Below, one piece after another: positions 13,345 through 64,000 of a stretch of DNA of 64,000 bases. The notes below the pieces were generated by a model. The model did not search any database, was not told the origin of the DNA, and worked only from the letters and a program-made list of their open reading frames with translations. Origin of the DNA: Streptomyces agglomeratus (lineage in GTDB: Bacteria > Actinomycetota > Actinomycetes > Streptomycetales > Streptomycetaceae); NCBI RefSeq assembly GCF_001746415.1, contig NZ_MEHJ01000001.1:496001-560000 (forward strand), in the 5' to 3' direction. Each line of letters opens with the position of its first letter. The first letter of the stretch is position 1. The translations under genes were made by a program, and so were the position numbers.

Positions 13345-13421
13345 ATGTGGCCGGTGCGCCCTGGCAGTTGGTGCCCGCCGGCCTGAATGTGGCCGGTGCG
13401 CCCTGGCGGTTGGTGCCCGCC
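13345..13421. repeat. Tandem repeat, 42-bp period
   Basis: Two copies of a 35-bp segment start at 13345 and 13387. Each contains GTGGCCGGTGCGCCCTGGC, and the copies differ at one base. They lie next to the 3' end of the second S8 protease gene. The surrounding 12926-13558 stretch holds no convincing gene; this may be the remains of a decayed repetitive coding region. Confidence 0.75.
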
Positions 13422-13558
13422 TTGCGGACGCCCGGCAGCGGATCACCCTCGCCATGTGCGTCGGGAGCCGACGCCTCGTCCTGGAGGTCGGCTGCCGCCC
13501 GACCCGTGACCGCTGCCCCGACCCGAGCGAACGGGCCGGGACACTGCCTGTTTACGCG

Positions 13559-15592
13559 TCAAAGGATGCGCCAGGCGACGGCGTAAGGCTGAGCGAACAG
13601 GGTGATCCTATGAGCTCTGACGACGACCTCGGCCTCCCCGGCGGGGACATCCTGCCAGTGGACCTGCTCGACGTTGTTGACGCGGTCGAAGCCGGAACCC
13701 GTACCCATGTTGCCGTGGCGTTCCTGACCGTCCGCGCGGACGATCAGGTCGAGGTCGTTCTGCAGGGCTGCCCCAGGGGGGTCCGTCCAGACGACGGTCA
13801 CCTTCAGAGTGCGGGCCCCTCCCTCCGGAACGGTGATGTGGAAGGCACGCTCCTCCCCCTGGTCCAGTTCCCCGGCGTCGGTGAAGCCCGCCCGGCCGGC
13901 GTCGGTCGGCAGGACGACGGCACGCTGGAGGTTGACGAGGCCGAAGCCGGAGCTGTTGTTCGGCGACGGGCCCGCCTCGCTGGGGTCGTACTGACCGGCC
14001 AGTTCGTCGGCGCCGTTGATCAGCATGGCCTTGATGAGCGCGGCGCTGGGCTTCGGGGTGCCGTTCTTCACGAGCGTCTCGCGCAGCACCGCCACACAGC
14101 CGGCCACCAGCGGGGTGGCCATGCTAGTACCGCCTTGGAACATGAACGCGGGGTCCGTGGAGACACCGAAGTTCTGGGAGGCCGGCGCCAGCCGCGAGCG
14201 GGCGGACAGGATCGACGTGCCGGGGGCGACGACATCGGGCTTGAAGCGTCCCTCCTGGGACGGGCCGCGGCTGCTGAAGGCTGCCATCCCGTGGGGGCTG
14301 TCCGCCATCTTGTCGCCGTTGATCGGCGGGACCGGCCACCGGAACTGTCCGTTCTTCAGCTGACCGTACGTCTTGGAGAACTCGGGTCGGTTGCCCTCGC
14401 TGGCTCCCACGGTGATGACGTTCTTGGCCGCGGTCTCCCCGCTGACGGACCTCATGTTGATGCGTCCGTCCCCGTCCTGGTCCGTACCGGAGTTGCCCGC
14501 GGCGAAGAGGATGACGAAGTCCTTGTTGTCCCAGACCATCCGATCGGCCTCTTTGGCGGCCTGGTTGTAGGGCAGCCCCGGGGTGACCGGGCCCCACGAA
14601 TTGGTGTGGATCCGCGCCCCGTCCTCCAGGAAGGGCGGTTCGAACAGCTTGCGGAGGTTGCTCGGGATGCCGGAGAGAAAGCCATTCTCGTCCATCACGG
14701 ATTGCAGGACCAGTCTCGCCTCCGGAGCCGTTCCGGTGACGGGTCCGCCCATCGACGCCGACGTGCCGTCGCCGAGGACCGAGCCCGCCACATGGGTGCC
14801 GTGCCCGTCAGGGTCGTCCATCCGCTCGGGGCTCGTGCGGCCCAGGGCGACCAGCCGCTTGACCCGGCCGGTGAAGGCGGGGTGCACATTGGTGGTCGAG
14901 CCCTTGTCGAAGCCGGTGTCGGCGACGCACACGATCTGGCCCTCGCCCCGGAACTTCGTGCCGTTGAGCGACACGTGGGCGTTCAGCAGGGTGCCCGAGA
15001 CGGTGTTGTACAGGACCCGCTCGGGGACCTCCTCGATCTCCTTCACCTCGTCGAGCGAGGCGAGGGCGGGCAGGTCCTCATCGCGGATCGTGATGCGGAC
15101 CTTCTCGCCGTCGTTCTGTACGTCGCCGTAGCTGACTCCGGCCGCCGCCGCGATCCGGTCCCGCAGTCCGTCCTCACTCATGTCGACGTCCTCGTGCAGG
15201 ACGATGTCGACGAGGCGGGGTCGCGGACCCGCACCGCCCAGAGGCTCGGCCAGTTCGGCGACGCCCGTGCGCAGCCGGGCCGAGCGGAGCGACTGGCCGA
15301 TCTTGAAGCCGTTGAGGTACACGTCCGCCCAGGCCACGAAGGGCAGTGCGCGTACGGCGTCCAGATCGCTCGGCCGGTAGCCGCACAGATAGGTGTCGTC
15401 CGGAACGTATTCCTGGAGCACCACGCCGAGTTCCGAGAGCTGTTCCTTCTCCTCGGGCGTGGGTGGGTGTGTGGTCTGTACGAGCAGATAGTTGGACGCG
15501 GAGGCGTCCTCGGACACCAGCGATGCGGCGACCAGCTCCTCGGACTGGAGCAGTGGGTCCACCGTCACGCCGTTGATGGTGATACGGGCCAT
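13559..15592 (-). CDS. S8 serine protease with C-terminal beta-domain, no signal peptide
   Basis: The 677-residue protein starts at the ATG preceded by CGGGAG. A 210-residue N-terminal region precedes the catalytic domain (SNYLLVQTTHPPTPEEKEQL, then YVPDDTYLCGYRPSDLDAV). The triad is complete: Asp225 (VADTGFD), His264 (GHGTHVAG) and Ser490 (GGTSMATP), with Asn in FAAGNSGT and FSSRGPSQEG after it. The C-terminal 130 residues (LKVTVVWTDPPGAALQNDLD) resemble the jelly roll of the KP-43-like subgroup. Related enzymes are exported, but here the N-terminus (MARITINGVTVDPLL) has no signal. The gene stands alone, with decayed genes upstream. The substrate is unknown. Confidence 0.92.
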   Translation of the reverse strand: MARITINGVTVDPLLQSEELVAASLVSEDASASNYLLVQTTHPPTPEEKEQLSELGVVLQEYVPDDTYLCGYRPSDLDAVRALPFVAWADVYLNGFKIGQSLRSARLRTGVAELAEPLGGAGPRPRLVDIVLHEDVDMSEDGLRDRIAAAAGVSYGDVQNDGEKVRITIRDEDLPALASLDEVKEIEEVPERVLYNTVSGTLLNAHVSLNGTKFRGEGQIVCVADTGFDKGSTTNVHPAFTGRVKRLVALGRTSPERMDDPDGHGTHVAGSVLGDGTSASMGGPVTGTAPEARLVLQSVMDENGFLSGIPSNLRKLFEPPFLEDGARIHTNSWGPVTPGLPYNQAAKEADRMVWDNKDFVILFAAGNSGTDQDGDGRINMRSVSGETAAKNVITVGASEGNRPEFSKTYGQLKNGQFRWPVPPINGDKMADSPHGMAAFSSRGPSQEGRFKPDVVAPGTSILSARSRLAPASQNFGVSTDPAFMFQGGTSMATPLVAGCVAVLRETLVKNGTPKPSAALIKAMLINGADELAGQYDPSEAGPSPNNSSGFGLVNLQRAVVLPTDAGRAGFTDAGELDQGEERAFHITVPEGGARTLKVTVVWTDPPGAALQNDLDLIVRADGQERHGNMGTGSGFDRVNNVEQVHWQDVPAGEAEVVVRAHRITLFAQPYAVAWRIL

Positions 15593-59570: not shown

Positions 59571-60452
59571 TCACTCGGCGCTGTATCTCGGCGTCTGGGG
59601 TATGTCCGGTTCGGCGCTGGGCACCAGCGGAGCGACGTTGTTGAGAGCGGCGGGAATCGCGTGTTGGATGCGGCGCTCGGGCTCTGCCGGTTCCCGGTGG
59701 GTCCCTCCAAGGCGCAATGCCAGGACATAGACGGGCTGAATCACGGTCTGCTGCTGGAGACGGCCGAGCTCGAGATATCCGGCCCGGGCCTCTTCTACGG
59801 TGAAGTCGCTGTCGCGGCGCAGCCGCAGGTGGTCCTCGGTTTCGGTCAGCACGTCGTCCAGTGAGCGCCAGCCGGACACGGCGGCACGAACGTTACTGAC
59901 TCGCCTGGCGACGCGTTCGAATCCGGTGAGGCTCCCGTCGGGGCCGAAGTACATGACCACGTTGCCGCCCTGTCCCTCGAAGGCGAGGCCGTCGAGCCGC
60001 CGCTTGAGGATGACCCCGACATCGATCACCCGCGGGTTCCTGGGGCTTTGGCCTCGGACGCAGGATGATGCACGCAGGCGCGTCACGCGGAACGGAGTGA
60101 AGTCGTTCTGCTCCATGAGTCCCACACGGCTTGCTTCTCGTACTGCCGCATCGAACGCCTCGGTGTCCGAGATATGCATGTCGGACGTTCCGTCATCCAC
60201 CTGCCATCGGCTGCTGTCGACGTACTGCACTGCTCGTGAGGGCCGGTAGACGGTGAGCGTGTGGGCATCGTGTTCCAGCCTCATGGACACCCCATCCTCG
60301 GACCAGGAGGGCTCCCGCGCCGGAATCGCCATGCCTGCGTGCCGTGCGAGCTCGACCGTGTCGTCCAGCGGCTCCAGTGAGGGATCGACCTCGTAGATGC
60401 TCGCCGGCGCCTCGAGCGCGTCCCAGCGTTGTCTCAGCGTGTTGTAGTCCAT
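59571..60452 (-). CDS. Unknown protein, last gene of the right-hand cluster (293 aa)
   Basis: The protein starts MDYNTLRQRWDALEAPASIY and has repeated small beta/alpha elements. Recognisable stretches are ALTVYRPS-like HTLTVYRPSRAVQYVDSS, a Gly-rich EGQGGNVVMYFGPDGSLTGF, and ARAGYLELGRLQQQTVIQPV near the end. The GYLELGRLQQQ stretch resembles a copper-oxidase or PepSY-type partner domain, but no family is certain. There is no signal or membrane segment. It follows the DUF6345-like gene by 33 bases, so it is in the same operon. Confidence 0.7.
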   Translation of the reverse strand: MDYNTLRQRWDALEAPASIYEVDPSLEPLDDTVELARHAGMAIPAREPSWSEDGVSMRLEHDAHTLTVYRPSRAVQYVDSSRWQVDDGTSDMHISDTEAFDAAVREASRVGLMEQNDFTPFRVTRLRASSCVRGQSPRNPRVIDVGVILKRRLDGLAFEGQGGNVVMYFGPDGSLTGFERVARRVSNVRAAVSGWRSLDDVLTETEDHLRLRRDSDFTVEEARAGYLELGRLQQQTVIQPVYVLALRLGGTHREPAEPERRIQHAIPAALNNVAPLVPSAEPDIPQTPRYSAE

Positions 60453-60485
60453 TGCGACCGCATCTCTCGTTGCATCGCGCGAAGT

Positions 60486-61232
60486 TTACGAACGCCACTT
60501 CCAAGCCAGACTGACGGATGGGACGGGCCCGCCTGCGCCGTCCGCCAAACGGCCGTTGTCGAGTCGAAATCGCGCGTCCGCCTCATCGTTGCCGCAGGCG
60601 ATCGCGATGGGTATGTTGGCCTGCTCCCCGGACCGTGCGAACGCTGCGTCGAGCCATGCGCTGCCTACCGGCGCACCGTGGGAGACGAAGGTGGCGAACT
60701 CCCCGCCACGGCCGGTGTCGAAACCGGCGAAGGACTCATCGACGAAAGTGCACAGGACGTGCAGCGACTCGAGGGGACGCGCGCTGTCTCCGTTGGTCGG
60801 TTCGGACCAGACCATGTTCACACTGGCGCTGACATCCGGTCCCGCCACCCCACCGCAGAGGTCCAGCACGAGCCAGCGCAGCTCCTGCACGCCCAGACGC
60901 ATGTTGCTGTAGAAGGCGCGGCAGCCGAAATGGTCCGACGCCAGGGAGACCGATACCTCCGGTAGCCCGTGCCCGGCGTAGTACATGAGCGCGACGCTGT
61001 CTATGCCGTCTTCGGTGAGCGACTGGCCGGTCGACGCGACTTCGGGGTGCTCGTAATCTGTCGCCCAGGCGTTCTCGTTACCACGTATGAAGCGGCGCGT
61101 GTGCCCCATGCTCTGCATGGCGGAGTCCATCCCGGACGCGACCGAGGAGATGACGGGAATGGCAACGAACGAACAGCTGGTCCCGACAGCGGGCGCCGCA
61201 TCGTTCCAGTGGACTCCATAGGTGACAGGCAT
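60486..61232 (-). CDS. DUF6345-like protein with clan-CD Cys/His pair
   Basis: The 248-residue protein has VALMYYAGHGLPEVSVSLAS, with His88 in AGHG, and LRWLVLDLCGGVAGPDVSAS, with Cys126 after a hydrophobic strand. This His-then-Cys order, about 38 residues apart, is that of caspase/gingipain-type (clan CD) peptidases. The overall pattern matches DUF6345 as known to me. The IPIAIACGND and FVSHGAPVGSAWLDAAFARS stretches follow. No signal is present. It may be a peptidase or an inactive relative. Spacing to the neighbours (33 and 31 bases) puts it in the operon. Confidence 0.7.
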   Translation of the reverse strand: MPVTYGVHWNDAAPAVGTSCSFVAIPVISSVASGMDSAMQSMGHTRRFIRGNENAWATDYEHPEVASTGQSLTEDGIDSVALMYYAGHGLPEVSVSLASDHFGCRAFYSNMRLGVQELRWLVLDLCGGVAGPDVSASVNMVWSEPTNGDSARPLESLHVLCTFVDESFAGFDTGRGGEFATFVSHGAPVGSAWLDAAFARSGEQANIPIAIACGNDEADARFRLDNGRLADGAGGPVPSVSLAWKWRS

Positions 61233-61263
61233 TTCCCTTACCCCTTCGCTGGTCCGCCGGCTG

Positions 61264-62214
61264 TCACAGTGGCCCCGACACGATCACGGAATTGTGCGAC
61301 TGGTAGAAGCCGCACCAGTCCGTGTAGCGGCCTCTGTTGCACGAGAACGGATTGGTGATCACGTTGTTGGAGTAGTCCACGTTCTGGGCAGGGTTGGTCG
61401 CCAGCTTGTGCCCCCAGAAACCCTCGCGGTGGCGCCGGTACCAGTGGTAGTCACGCTTCCCGCTCATCATGGTTCCGGTGACGAGCGCGACCAAGTGCCG
61501 TTCATAACCGGCCGGCTGACAGTCACCCCAAACCCGCAGCCCGTCCCGCAACACTCCCGTGCGCACATCCGCGCAGGTCACTGAGGGCGGGATTCTGTAG
61601 CCATGAGCCCATCCGGGTTGAGCGAACGAGTCCGTACGCTGGTTCACGGCGTAGTTGTAGCAGTTGTTGCGCTCTACGACGTAGAAGTTGTTCCAGAAGG
61701 CGGGCTCGAATGGACCGGCATCGAACGGACACGCATTCAGACGTTGATCGATAAGTCGGAGCTGTTCTTCGACTTCAGCCGCGAGTGCCTGGTCCGGTGG
61801 CTCCCCCGGCTCGATTGTCTCCGTCCCTCCTAGTCCTTCTTTGACTGATCGTTGAATTGCCTGACGCGTGGCGTCGCGCAGAACTCGAAAGTCACCCCTC
61901 TCTTCTTCCTCAGCAGGCTCCGGCATCGTCTCGAGAAGTTCCTCCGCCAACTCGGCACTGGCGAAGGGGTCTACGGCACCGCCACCTGCGATTTCGATGC
62001 TCGGCGGCAGACCGAACGACTGCACAGTGTCACTGGCGAAGTCGATCTTCATCCCGCGGAAGTCGACCCCCGTGAAGCCGCCGGGCGCCACTGCCAAGCC
62101 TGCGCGATGACGCAGGAACAGCCGCAGGAACCGTTGCACCTGATCGGGATCGGTGACCATCCACGAGGGATTTGGCAGGCCCGAATAGATTTCCAGCGTC
62201 ACACGGAACGCCAT
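61264..62214 (-). CDS. Cys/His (papain-fold-like) protein, long form
   Basis: The 316-residue protein starts MAFRVTLEIYSGLPNPSWMV, an N-terminal domain of about 160 residues with no known match. The second half has VVERNNCYNYAVNQRTDSFA (Cys185) and RDYHWYRRHREGFWGHKLAT (His257), then YTDWCGFYQSHNSVIV. The same NNC and DYHxYR pair appears in the gene at 63385. The order and spacing suggest a papain-like or NlpC-like catalytic pair, perhaps with an Asn/Asp in the NVDYSNN stretch. Activity is inferred. No signal is present. Confidence 0.6.
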   Translation of the reverse strand: MAFRVTLEIYSGLPNPSWMVTDPDQVQRFLRLFLRHRAGLAVAPGGFTGVDFRGMKIDFASDTVQSFGLPPSIEIAGGGAVDPFASAELAEELLETMPEPAEEEERGDFRVLRDATRQAIQRSVKEGLGGTETIEPGEPPDQALAAEVEEQLRLIDQRLNACPFDAGPFEPAFWNNFYVVERNNCYNYAVNQRTDSFAQPGWAHGYRIPPSVTCADVRTGVLRDGLRVWGDCQPAGYERHLVALVTGTMMSGKRDYHWYRRHREGFWGHKLATNPAQNVDYSNNVITNPFSCNRGRYTDWCGFYQSHNSVIVSGPL

Positions 62215-62262
62215 GTCGGCTCTCCTTGCTTCTCCTCTTGTGCACTGCGGCCCGTTTCTCCG

Positions 62263-63342
62263 TCACGGATCTTCCTCGACGTACAGGAATTCCGGGCCGT
62301 ACGTCTTTCCGCTCCCGTCGGGCAGCGGCGTCGCCATCAGCGTCTGGGCAGGTACCTGCAAGCTGACCATTTCCACGACTGCCCGGTTCAGCATCTGCTT
62401 CGCCGTGCCCGGCTGCTCCGCCTTCCAGGCGCGTTCGAGGAACCGGAGCATCGAGCTGTAGTGCCGGTTGAATTCGGTCAGGTCCCGTTGCACGGCATCG
62501 GAGACGGGCACCCCGCCTTCGACCCAGCCGCCTGCGGGCACCGTTCCCATCGGGAACGCCCGAGGCATGGGAATCTCATCTCCCTGGAAATCAAACAGTG
62601 GCGGATCGTCTGATACGCGGATCAGGTTGCGCCCGTGGAAGATCTCTCGGAAGGAGTAGAAGTGCGCCAACTCGTCGGCCTCGCCCGGGAACGGGTTCTC
62701 CGGTGATGCCGCGGTGCCCTCGCCCTGCTCCTTGATGACTTGCAGGGCAGCCTCTACATCACCGAGCGATCTGAGCGGGGCGACGTTGTTCCCCTGCCCG
62801 TGGGCCGCGGACATGTCCTTGGTCAGCTGCCGCGTGCCCTGGATCAACTCCGGGCGCGCACGGAAAGCTTCGAGAATCGCCGTGTAGAACGCGCCGATAG
62901 ACGTGTGCGCTATCCGTTCTTCGGCCACGGGGTCGTCGGGCCTCTCGATGCGGGAGTACATGTCGAGCGCCTGCTTGCTCAACCCGGTGAGAGACACCTC
63001 CAGATCCGGCTGAACACCACCGGGAAGCGGACCTGGGTACTTCGGTACGAGCTCGCTGTCGGCGATGCGCGGCACCTCACCAATGGTCGAGACCATGTTG
63101 CAGACCAAACCCATGTGTGACATCTCATCGAAGACGATTTCGTGAATCGTCTCGAAGACATCCGACCCCTGGTCCTCCTCCAGGATCGACCAAAGGCCAC
63201 ACAGATAGGGCGGCAGCGTCGCGAGCTCCAGCAAGACGGCCTGTTGCAGCGCCTCCTTCAGCCAGGTTTCGTCATGGTCCGTTGCGGGCATCTGCATGAG
63301 CTCAACGATCGCGTCGCTTCGATACTTAACGGCACCTGACAT
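62263..63342 (-). CDS. Ferritin-like di-iron protein (VioB/RebD N-domain type)
   Basis: The 359-residue protein starts at an ATG after AAGGAG. It has the four-helix ligand set: Glu39 (VLLELATLPPYL), Glu73 and His76 (EIVFDEMSHMGL), probably Glu157 (YTAILEAF), and Glu224 and His227 (ADELAHFYSF). This pattern matches the ferritin-like family seen alone in many actinobacteria and fused in VioB/RebD. In the latter it supports oxidative dimerisation. No other pigment-pathway gene is present. It probably binds a di-iron or manganese-iron centre. It is flanked by two Cys/His-type paralogues with gaps of 42 and 48 bases. Confidence 0.85.
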   Translation of the reverse strand: MSGAVKYRSDAIVELMQMPATDHDETWLKEALQQAVLLELATLPPYLCGLWSILEEDQGSDVFETIHEIVFDEMSHMGLVCNMVSTIGEVPRIADSELVPKYPGPLPGGVQPDLEVSLTGLSKQALDMYSRIERPDDPVAEERIAHTSIGAFYTAILEAFRARPELIQGTRQLTKDMSAAHGQGNNVAPLRSLGDVEAALQVIKEQGEGTAASPENPFPGEADELAHFYSFREIFHGRNLIRVSDDPPLFDFQGDEIPMPRAFPMGTVPAGGWVEGGVPVSDAVQRDLTEFNRHYSSMLRFLERAWKAEQPGTAKQMLNRAVVEMVSLQVPAQTLMATPLPDGSGKTYGPEFLYVEEDP

Positions 63343-63384
63343 GAGAGCTCCTTCGGCAACACGCGCTCGGACAACAACGACCCG

Positions 63385-64000
63385 TCAAGCAACCAAAGCA
63401 GTCGCATTTCTCTGGTAGAACCAGCCGACGAACTCGGTGTACACGGGCACAATGGGGTCGGGCGGCGTCTTCACACAGTTCTGGGGATGCCGCCAGATAA
63501 CCGAACCACCGCCGGTCACTTGTCGGCGTATCGGGTAGCCGGCGCCATCGAGGTACACCGCCGGGGTGCCACCGGTCTTGTGATACCAAAGCCAGTTGGG
63601 ATCCGGTGACACGAGACGGTAGAAGTGATAGTCCCAGCCCGGCCAGACGTGGGCCGCGATCACGAGAGTATTCGTCTGGCAGTTGTCAGCCCAGCCATCG
63701 GCGTAGAGACCGCCCCGAATGTTGTCGACTGTCGGGGAGGCAGCCGGCTTTCCCCCTCTACGTCCCGGCAAGGCATGTCGAATGTTCGCCACGTGGTTCG
63801 ACGCAAAGCAGTAGCAGTTGTTCTTTTCAACTGTTCCGGGACTGTTGAAGATGTCCGCGTTCGCGGCATAGAGCGTGCTGGGACACGGTCGATGCCATGT
63901 CACCCCCCGTTCGACATCCGGGGATTCATCGAACGAGTCAGGACTGGGTGGGTACAGCTCCTCCCGCTCGGCCGGCAGAATAGAGGGGCCTCCTGCAGCA
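63385..64000 (-). CDS. Cys/His (papain-fold-like) protein, 5' part missing
   Basis: The frame stays open to the right edge, so the start lies outside. A start at 63903 (GTG) is possible but cuts a coding-like stretch (SFDESPDVERGVTWHRP). About 205 residues are visible. They include TVEKNNCYCFASNHVAN (Cys at codon 63814-63816), WPGWDYHFYRLVSPD (His at 63625-63627), YHKTGGTPAVYLDGAGYP and YTEFVGWFYQ. These match the features of the gene at 61264, so the two are paralogues. It is the first visible gene of the right-hand operon. Confidence 0.65.
   Translation of the reverse strand, partial: AAGGPSILPAEREELYPPSPDSFDESPDVERGVTWHRPCPSTLYAANADIFNSPGTVEKNNCYCFASNHVANIRHALPGRRGGKPAASPTVDNIRGGLYADGWADNCQTNTLVIAAHVWPGWDYHFYRLVSPDPNWLWYHKTGGTPAVYLDGAGYPIRRQVTGGGSVIWRHPQNCVKTPPDPIVPVYTEFVGWFYQRNATALVA

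Follow-up and report, generated by a model that had tools for sequence, protein, structure and literature searches.

A compact Streptomyces gene block pairs a PF12902 ferritin-like protein with three candidate cysteine hydrolases

At the right edge of a 64,000-nucleotide stretch of the Streptomyces agglomeratus genome (positions 496001-560000 of contig C1, 9.13 Mb genome; hereafter the window), six minus-strand genes combine a ferritin-like protein of family PF12902 (FerL) with three candidate cysteine hydrolases (CysA, CysB and a DUF6345 protein), a beta-propeller protein and an orphan protein (U293). The genes are a conserved, selected unit found at two different genomic sites, here and in Streptomyces cirratus. 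Our preferred reading, offered tentatively, is that the block is an operon encoding a cytoplasmic oxidise-and-cleave module that processes proteins or peptides and is built on FerL. The block is a further form of oxidase/protease locus centred on PF12902, and the Cys/His family that it contains is uncharacterised; this gene combination is not described in the literature searched.

The block is conserved and selected as a unit

The block consists of the following genes:

59571-60452, minus strand: U293, 293 amino acids; orphan protein, last gene of the block
60486-61232, minus strand: DUF6345 protein, 248 amino acids; caspase-like (clan CD-type) hydrolase candidate, PF19872
61264-62214, minus strand: CysB, 316 amino acids; N-terminal 'SGRPNP' domain and C-terminal hydrolase-like domain (NNCY, DxH, W-x-HK, D)
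62263-63342, minus strand: FerL, 359 amino acids; PF12902 ferritin-like protein
63385-64350, minus strand: CysA, 321 amino acids; CysB paralogue, running past the window edge (64000) to 64350
64851-65783, minus strand: YVTN beta-propeller gene; outside the window, sixth gene of the block

A pattern-based scan of genome contigs with FerL returned seven loci, including one in S. cirratus (L008) at which the products are closely related to those of the window (protein identity 75% for the YVTN protein, 84% for FerL, 82% for CysB, 90% for the DUF6345 protein and 84% for U293). The DNA is 85.6% identical over 3,845 bp, from the CysA end to just past U293, and homology extends to the beta-propeller gene. 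It ends at the gene borders of the block and was not seen in the flanks compared, which places the block at a different genomic site in S. cirratus. Ratios of nonsynonymous to synonymous substitution (dN/dS) between the two copies were 0.26 for the YVTN gene, 0.18 for FerL, 0.17 for CysB, 0.17 for DUF6345 and 0.28 for U293. Conservation as a unit, with ratios of this order in five genes, shows that the cluster is more than a chance arrangement. Four other loci of the scan (L006, L007, L009 and L010) held no block gene except FerL.

CysA is the only decayed gene of the block in S. cirratus, where it is reduced to fragments, and its remnants also lie directly upstream of FerL in L004 (motif Cys changed to Ser, frame broken) and L005. 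The window genome has an intact CysA, in which Cys179, His242 and Asp268 are present. CysA is thus a long-standing neighbour of FerL that was lost repeatedly or before a split, and because it has decayed in three relatives it seems dispensable.

Five minus-strand genes separated by 31-48 bp had been predicted, and the gaps from CysA down to U293 are indeed 42, 48, 31 and 33 bp. Extension to the right, which had been proposed as a check, completed CysA and added the sixth gene of the conserved block. Its product matches TIGR02276 (E = 1.7e-50), and it lies 500 bp upstream of CysA, completing a block of about 6.2 kb. The gaps are operon-like, with purine-rich stretches upstream of the genes, and the block genes are predicted to be co-transcribed; a promoter scan found none, and terminators were at chance level. 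The G+C content of positions 59571-64000 is 63.4%, versus a mean of 68.3% over the first 59 kb (standard deviation 2.4 per kb). The absence of export signals that had been predicted also held: no twin arginine occurs in the first 30 residues of the block proteins, and a plain hydropathy scan, with no trained signal-peptide predictor, found no strongly hydrophobic N-terminus (highest value 1.69 over 15 residues, in the DUF6345 protein). No Rfam or tRNA features were found in the window, and a PHROGs search gave no useful match. To the right of the YVTN gene lie short doubtful open reading frames (ORFs) and then, by eye, a TetR-like gene at 66945.

FerL carries conserved residues of the ferritin type

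FerL matches PF12902 over the entire profile (positions 1-221 of 221; E = 2.7e-50; 171.7 bits against a cut-off of 22.3) and is the only PF12902 match in the window genome. A sequence search of the PDB returned just one match, 3hl1 from Caulobacter (E = 6.4e-5). Residues E39, E73, H76, E133 and E208 are present in 68 of 68 aligned sequences, the window's included, and H227 in 97%. These carboxylates and histidines are as expected for a ferritin-type site, at which FerL is predicted to bind metal. The ExxH motif is encoded as follows:

63115-63126, minus strand: codons of the FerL ExxH motif (Glu73, His76), candidate metal ligands

Part of the PF12902 region is shared with VioB, the iminophenyl-pyruvate dimer synthase; FerL, at 359 amino acids, lacks the rest of that enzyme. 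The VioB profile (TIGR04492) scored 15.1 bits on FerL (E = 0.0038, residues 60-171), against an equivalog cut-off of 1250 bits.

The same partners recur around FerL in different combinations

We compared FerL neighbourhoods at 69 loci, among which L108 gave no FerL ORF and 7 distant ones entered neither of two sets: a close set of 25 loci (at least 46% identity; 23 from genomes, including the window's own, and 2 from plasmids) and a sister-clade set of 38 (38-45%). Sixty regions were taken from the PF12902 list by score, not randomly, and L030 was fetched through CysB. Among plasmids, 26 records matched FerL, 8 were opened and 2 entered the 25-locus table. Partners were counted within 6 kb in both sets, with family names from Pfam; 'LodB-like' is our label for a Trp-halogenase/flavin adenine dinucleotide (FAD) protein beside LodA.

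In the close set we counted DyP-like proteins at four loci, LodB-like FAD proteins at four (one weak, L097), an unnamed 170-amino-acid protein (P170) at four, and LodA (at L030 only an end fragment), trypsin-like proteins, P232 and CysB at three each. CysA or a CysA-like gene was also counted at three, where the L008 match is to CysB and the L005 remnant falls below the threshold of the count. Subtilase, PatG-like, DUF6345, U293 and YVTN genes were each found at two loci, and a tyrosinase and X1326 at one each. At least one listed partner is present at 16 of the 25 loci (15 without the single tyrosinase locus), and a partner also seen in another locus at 15 of 25, if PatG-like and P170 count. 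Peptidase-type partners (a Cys/His gene, DUF6345, subtilase or trypsin-like) occur at 8 of 25 loci, redox partners (DyP-like, LodA/LodB-like or tyrosinase, the weak L097 match excluded) likewise at 8, one type or the other at 12, and both at 4 (L005, L030, L142 and L145). Only 1 of the 38 sister-clade loci had a partner, a subtilase, a contrast that is overstated since the listed partners were chosen from among those of the 25 close loci themselves and L030 was reached through CysB. The firm result of this comparison is that the same partners turn up again in varied combinations.

Some of these labels are approximate. DyP_N scored above its cut-off in all three DyP-like proteins scanned, and the catalytic Dyp_perox_C domain was clearly present in none of the three. 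The trypsin-like label comes from the L099 homologue, which matches Nal1_C below the cut-off (E = 3.8e-4), together with GDSG and His motifs seen by eye; the trypsin-like proteins of L142 and L145 have no Pfam match themselves.

Two Streptomyces loci (L142:2528-10827 and L145:2315-10732) hold LodA with a long N-terminal extension, a LodB-like gene, P232, FerL and a trypsin-like protease, as well as a regulator-like gene (by eye). In L030 a LodA homologue (13385-14659) lies beside FAD, FerL and CysB genes; what is left of it matches the L142 protein only at residues 15-379 and 1021-1053, and its oxidase core appears to have been lost.

Plasmids provide further links. The S. xanthophaeus plasmid NZ_CP116356 has genes for FerL (56.6%) and a CysB homologue (40%) separated by 11 kb. 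Located between and around the two are genes for P232, BTAD regulators, a PatG_D/PatG_C protein and two large proteins of unknown kind. P232 is also found next to CysB in L030 and at L142 and L145, where LodA, a LodB-like gene and FerL are present. A Rhizobium plasmid with a CysB homologue (L088) showed no FerL in the 15 kb seen. A Bradyrhizobium barranii plasmid (L159:892-8035) encodes a 915-amino-acid protein that joins a YCF48/BNR beta-propeller and an immunoglobulin-like domain to PF12902. This fusion favours a functional connection between the FerL and beta-propeller proteins of the window block. The opposite strand carries a split LodA_N (above the cut-off), LodA_C (just below it), a radical S-adenosylmethionine (SAM) gene and an annotated tryptophan 7-halogenase. 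A Rhizobium leguminosarum plasmid (L160) has the same layout by annotation only, and the two are candidate quinone-cofactor-type loci.

CysA and CysB belong to a family with an invariant Cys, His and Asp

CysA and CysB had been thought to be related, and they align at 23% identity, with CysA retaining all 22 columns that are invariant among 17 family members. These columns include N183, N184, C185, Y186, D255, H257, R260, W267, H269, K270 and D280 (CysB numbering). In an alignment of the C-terminal domain alone, from Streptomyces, a Rhizobium plasmid, a Vibrio plasmid and an Anaeroplasmataceae phage, the Cys, His and Asp are kept in 12 of 12 sequences, and the second His is Gln in Vibrio; several rows of both alignments are closely related to one another. 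The conserved codons of CysB are:

61660-61662, minus strand: Cys185, candidate nucleophile, invariant in 17 of 17 and 12 of 12 sequences
61444-61446, minus strand: His257, invariant in both alignments
61375-61377, minus strand: Asp280, invariant in both alignments

The invariant residues follow the Cys, His, Asp/Asn order of papain-like (clan CA) enzymes, and from this order we infer that CysA and CysB are papain-like cysteine hydrolases. Profile searches returned no supporting papain-like match. Pfam gave no match up to E = 1 for CysB or for CysA (scanned as its 204-amino-acid in-window part), and across the 17 members it called two unrelated families, in one member each (best E = 0.038). 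The PDB search returned only a designed binder (E = 5.8) that aligns outside the domain, and nothing for the domain profile alone. A phage relative of the domain matched DUF7689 (PF24738) below threshold (E = 0.029); a DUF7689 search of the window's own genome gave no match, but was uninformative because no control matched either. By eye the domain may resemble the N-terminal glutamine amidase NTAQ1 (CY...DYH...D), which is a lead; the NTAQ1 family was absent when the 17 members were scanned against Pfam at E up to 10. Pfam has no clearly matching model for the Cys/His proteins, a candidate family of hydrolases that deserves a model of its own.

The DUF6345 protein has a caspase-like signature

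As with FerL, Pfam confirmed the identity first proposed for the DUF6345 protein: it matches PF19872 with E = 3.6e-22 and 79.4 bits, against a curated cut-off of 26.9. All 10 members aligned, among them seven long proteins represented by their N-terminal halves, keep His88-Gly89 and Cys126, in line with the His-Gly and later Cys dyad of clan CD:

60969-60971, minus strand: DUF6345 His88 codon, candidate catalytic His
60855-60857, minus strand: DUF6345 Cys126 codon, candidate nucleophile

Searched against 177,635 PDB sequences, the DUF6345 profile had a sole match up to E = 10, the MALT1 paracaspase (3v4o; E = 2.6, not significant). The match aligns Y-A-G-H-G and L-D-x-C, and with them both catalytic residues of this clan CD peptidase, with the DUF6345 protein, in which Pfam calls no caspase domain. 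Because it would be a coincidence for a chance best match to align two catalytic residues, we consider the DUF6345 protein quite probably a caspase-like hydrolase. Neither DUF6345 nor DUF7689 is mentioned in the literature searched.

U293 has no Pfam match to E = 1 and no PDB match. Its gene adjoins a DUF6345 gene at three of the four loci where it is found (the window, L008 and L039), and the fourth, L040, is without DUF6345. We also compared U293 with the FTP/PepSY-like C-terminal half of long DUF6345 proteins; the profile-profile probability was 0.14% (E = 0.41, register agreeing), and we do not claim this relationship.

The complete set is rare within the genus

Among 392 genomes of the genus, CysB-type genes were found in 12, U293 in 3, PF12902 in 135 and DUF6345 in 16 (the CysB and U293 scans scored only 5-6 candidates per genome). 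PF12902 is thus present in about a third of the sampled genus genomes; it also occurs on plasmids of cyanobacteria and rhizobia, and in fungi, as the portion of PMC4417212 consulted indicates. Nine of the 12 CysB genomes also hold a PF12902 gene (hypergeometric 0.004) and two of the three U293 genomes also hold DUF6345 (0.005), values that are flattering since the own genome is counted and the genomes are related. In the 11 other CysB genomes, CysB and PF12902 genes are close (1.5 kb) only in G162 (L030). In a sample of the phylum, the Cys/His profile matched 2 of 396 genomes, one of them the window's own.

The complete set was present in 1 of the 392 genus genomes, the window's own, and in S. 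cirratus, suggesting that the block is young or often lost. Rare co-occurrence had been named in advance as grounds for rejecting the original prediction. It holds for the full set, but Cys/His genes or remnants also adjoin FerL in L004, L005, L008 and L030.

A possible oxidise-and-cleave module

FerL appears to stand at the centre of oxidase/protease loci assembled in mix-and-match fashion, of which the window block is a protease-rich version. Its partners have probably been exchanged among loci that mature or attack polypeptides, and three cysteine-hydrolase candidates would have been brought in here. In such a module, FerL would hold a metal pair and carry out an oxidation step on a polypeptide, or handle peroxide; the beta-propeller would serve as a docking platform; as cysteine hydrolases, CysA, CysB and the DUF6345 protein would cleave the substrate or activate each other; and U293 would be a partner or regulator of the DUF6345 protein. 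The original prediction had likewise proposed protein processing with an oxidising ferritin-like protein. Neighbourhoods, the beta-propeller fusion and invariant catalytic-type residues lend this part indirect support, and nothing was found in favour of its further suggestion that the Cys/His proteins ligate.

Two known systems offer comparisons. In lodA/lodB loci (of fungi, as far as the part of PMC4417212 consulted goes, and of Streptomyces and Bradyrhizobium here), PF12902 stands beside oxidisers of amino acids or proteins. Unlike these loci, the window block lacks LodA, a LodB-like FAD protein and a radical SAM gene, and has three cysteine-hydrolase candidates in their place; the single LodA_N match in its own genome (C1:60924-61571) is about 500 kb away. 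The second is the qhp operon for quinohaemoprotein amine dehydrogenase, a possible analogue in which, according to the part of PMC7876137 consulted, a cytoplasmic oxygenase and a dedicated protease mature one protein encoded adjacently. Unlike the qhp operon, the window block was not found to hold a radical SAM protein, flavoprotein, cysteine tryptophylquinone (CTQ) protein or subtilase.

Several results weigh against a processing module. No conserved small precursor ORF, which the prediction had suggested looking for nearby, is present in the 6.2 kb block; an 83-amino-acid ORF in the 500 bp gap between the YVTN gene and CysA falls outside the part alignable to S. cirratus, where the region is shortened, and a precursor may be encoded at a remote site. 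The block holds neither an oxidase other than FerL nor a gene for a modified protein, and no target protein is evident in the window. Among the close loci, 9 of 25 have no listed partner, 3 have only P170 (one of them plus a weak FAD match) and 13 have no peptidase or oxidase partner. CysA has decayed in three relatives, the complete set is as rare as described above, and the MALT1 match is not significant taken alone. No biochemical activity of PF12902 proteins is described in the parts of the literature examined, and VioB is ascribed a haem b cofactor, with no structure, in the part of a violacein review consulted (PMC9705886), so that its PF12902 part need not be an oxidase.

The alternative that survives best, although unlikely, makes FerL a peroxide or iron handler that protects oxidation-sensitive enzymes: the cysteine hydrolases would do the work and FerL would keep their cysteines reduced. 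Manganese catalase and Dps have the ferritin fold, three of the block's proteins have candidate catalytic cysteines, and the redox partners at 8 of the 25 close loci (LodA/LodB-like, DyP-like or tyrosinase) make or use peroxide or oxygen; a tyrosinase (by annotation) also lies near a FerL relative in Acaryochloris. However, the beta-propeller-PF12902 fusion in a LodA/radical-SAM locus suggests a substrate-directed role, and the parts of the literature examined describe no catalase-type activity for PF12902 proteins.

Two further alternatives strike us as improbable, one about as much as the other. In a cassette for defence, self-killing or inter-bacterial conflict, the caspase-like and papain-like enzymes would cut targets in the cell and the other proteins would act as sensor and regulator. 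Such a role would fit the caspase-like signature of the DUF6345 protein, the patchy distribution with two different insertion sites, and a phage-borne Cys/His domain that is joined to a weak trypsin-like region and encoded by the second gene after a holin. However, none of the six block proteins matched a PADLOC protein model at E = 1, Pfam called no nucleoside triphosphatase (NTPase) or other known defence domain in the block, and the redox partners at close FerL loci are at odds with it. Alternatively, the block could belong to a natural-product cluster, for a ribosomally synthesized and post-translationally modified peptide (RiPP) or an amino-acid-derived compound, with its precursor encoded elsewhere and FerL acting as in VioB. 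The FerL relative that has BTAD regulators and a PatG_D/PatG_C protein as neighbours and the weak VioB profile match point this way; against it are the distance from the VioB equivalog cut-off, the missing small ORF, and profile scans of the six proteins, in which no transporter, carrier protein, P450 or methyltransferase appeared.

Least probable of all is a transferred remnant whose genes are linked by hitch-hiking and are now decaying, which the lower G+C content, the decay of CysA and the rarity of the block would suit, but which is hard to square with intact frames and low dN/dS in the five genes compared, precise block borders at two sites and operon-like gaps with purine-rich upstream stretches.

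A bolder extension of the oxidise-and-cleave reading, to which we give very little credence, would make PF12902 proteins the interchangeable oxygenase core of widespread, undescribed protein-maturation loci that modify side chains of partner proteins. In LodA loci this might be the first tryptophan hydroxylation; that hydroxylation is already present before the known flavoprotein acts, according to the portion of PMC7876137 consulted. In the window block, a caspase-like and two papain-like hydrolases would act together with FerL on a beta-propeller-bound substrate. As a compact, selected operon that would pair PF12902 with three candidate cysteine hydrolases, the block is a tractable handle on the PF12902 family.

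Relatives of the hydrolase candidates at other loci

The phage relative of the Cys/His domain (PV036447.1, L150:3273-5471) is a 732-amino-acid protein with the domain at its C-terminus and a weak, sub-threshold trypsin-like region; as the second gene after the holin, it occupies an endolysin-like position. Three scans of viral contigs gave one Cys/His relative, L149, in which no single ORF spans the match. On the Vibrio plasmid NZ_MZ496297.1 (L151:1472-5552), a Cys/His-domain protein ends a four-gene run, preceded by a C45-type enzyme (by annotation; Pfam below the cut-off), an N-terminal-Asn-amidohydrolase-like protein and an asparaginase, which suggests an amide-hydrolase set.

The N-terminal 'SGRPNP' domain of CysA and CysB also occurs as a separate small gene beside a full-length gene, at three loci that are alike (L031:7537-7872, L032:10291-10626 and L033:9900-10235) and at L036:8114-8479 and L038:7788-8297, the last with a lipoprotein-like start. 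The stand-alone protein is possibly an inhibitor or adaptor.

In the long DUF6345 proteins of L075 and L076, the C-terminal half has a weak FTP-propeptide match below the cut-off, and the other long proteins of L073-L086 have the same half by eye; it is possibly a built-in inhibitor of the caspase-like enzyme. A second protease-rich neighbourhood of the DUF6345/U293 pair lies at L039:8347-12565 (G159), where the two genes are accompanied by an unknown gene, a zincin-like protein with sub-threshold Pfam matches (best E = 1.5e-4) and a visible HExxHxxGxxH motif, and a gene whose HEAT match is very weak (E = 0.065).

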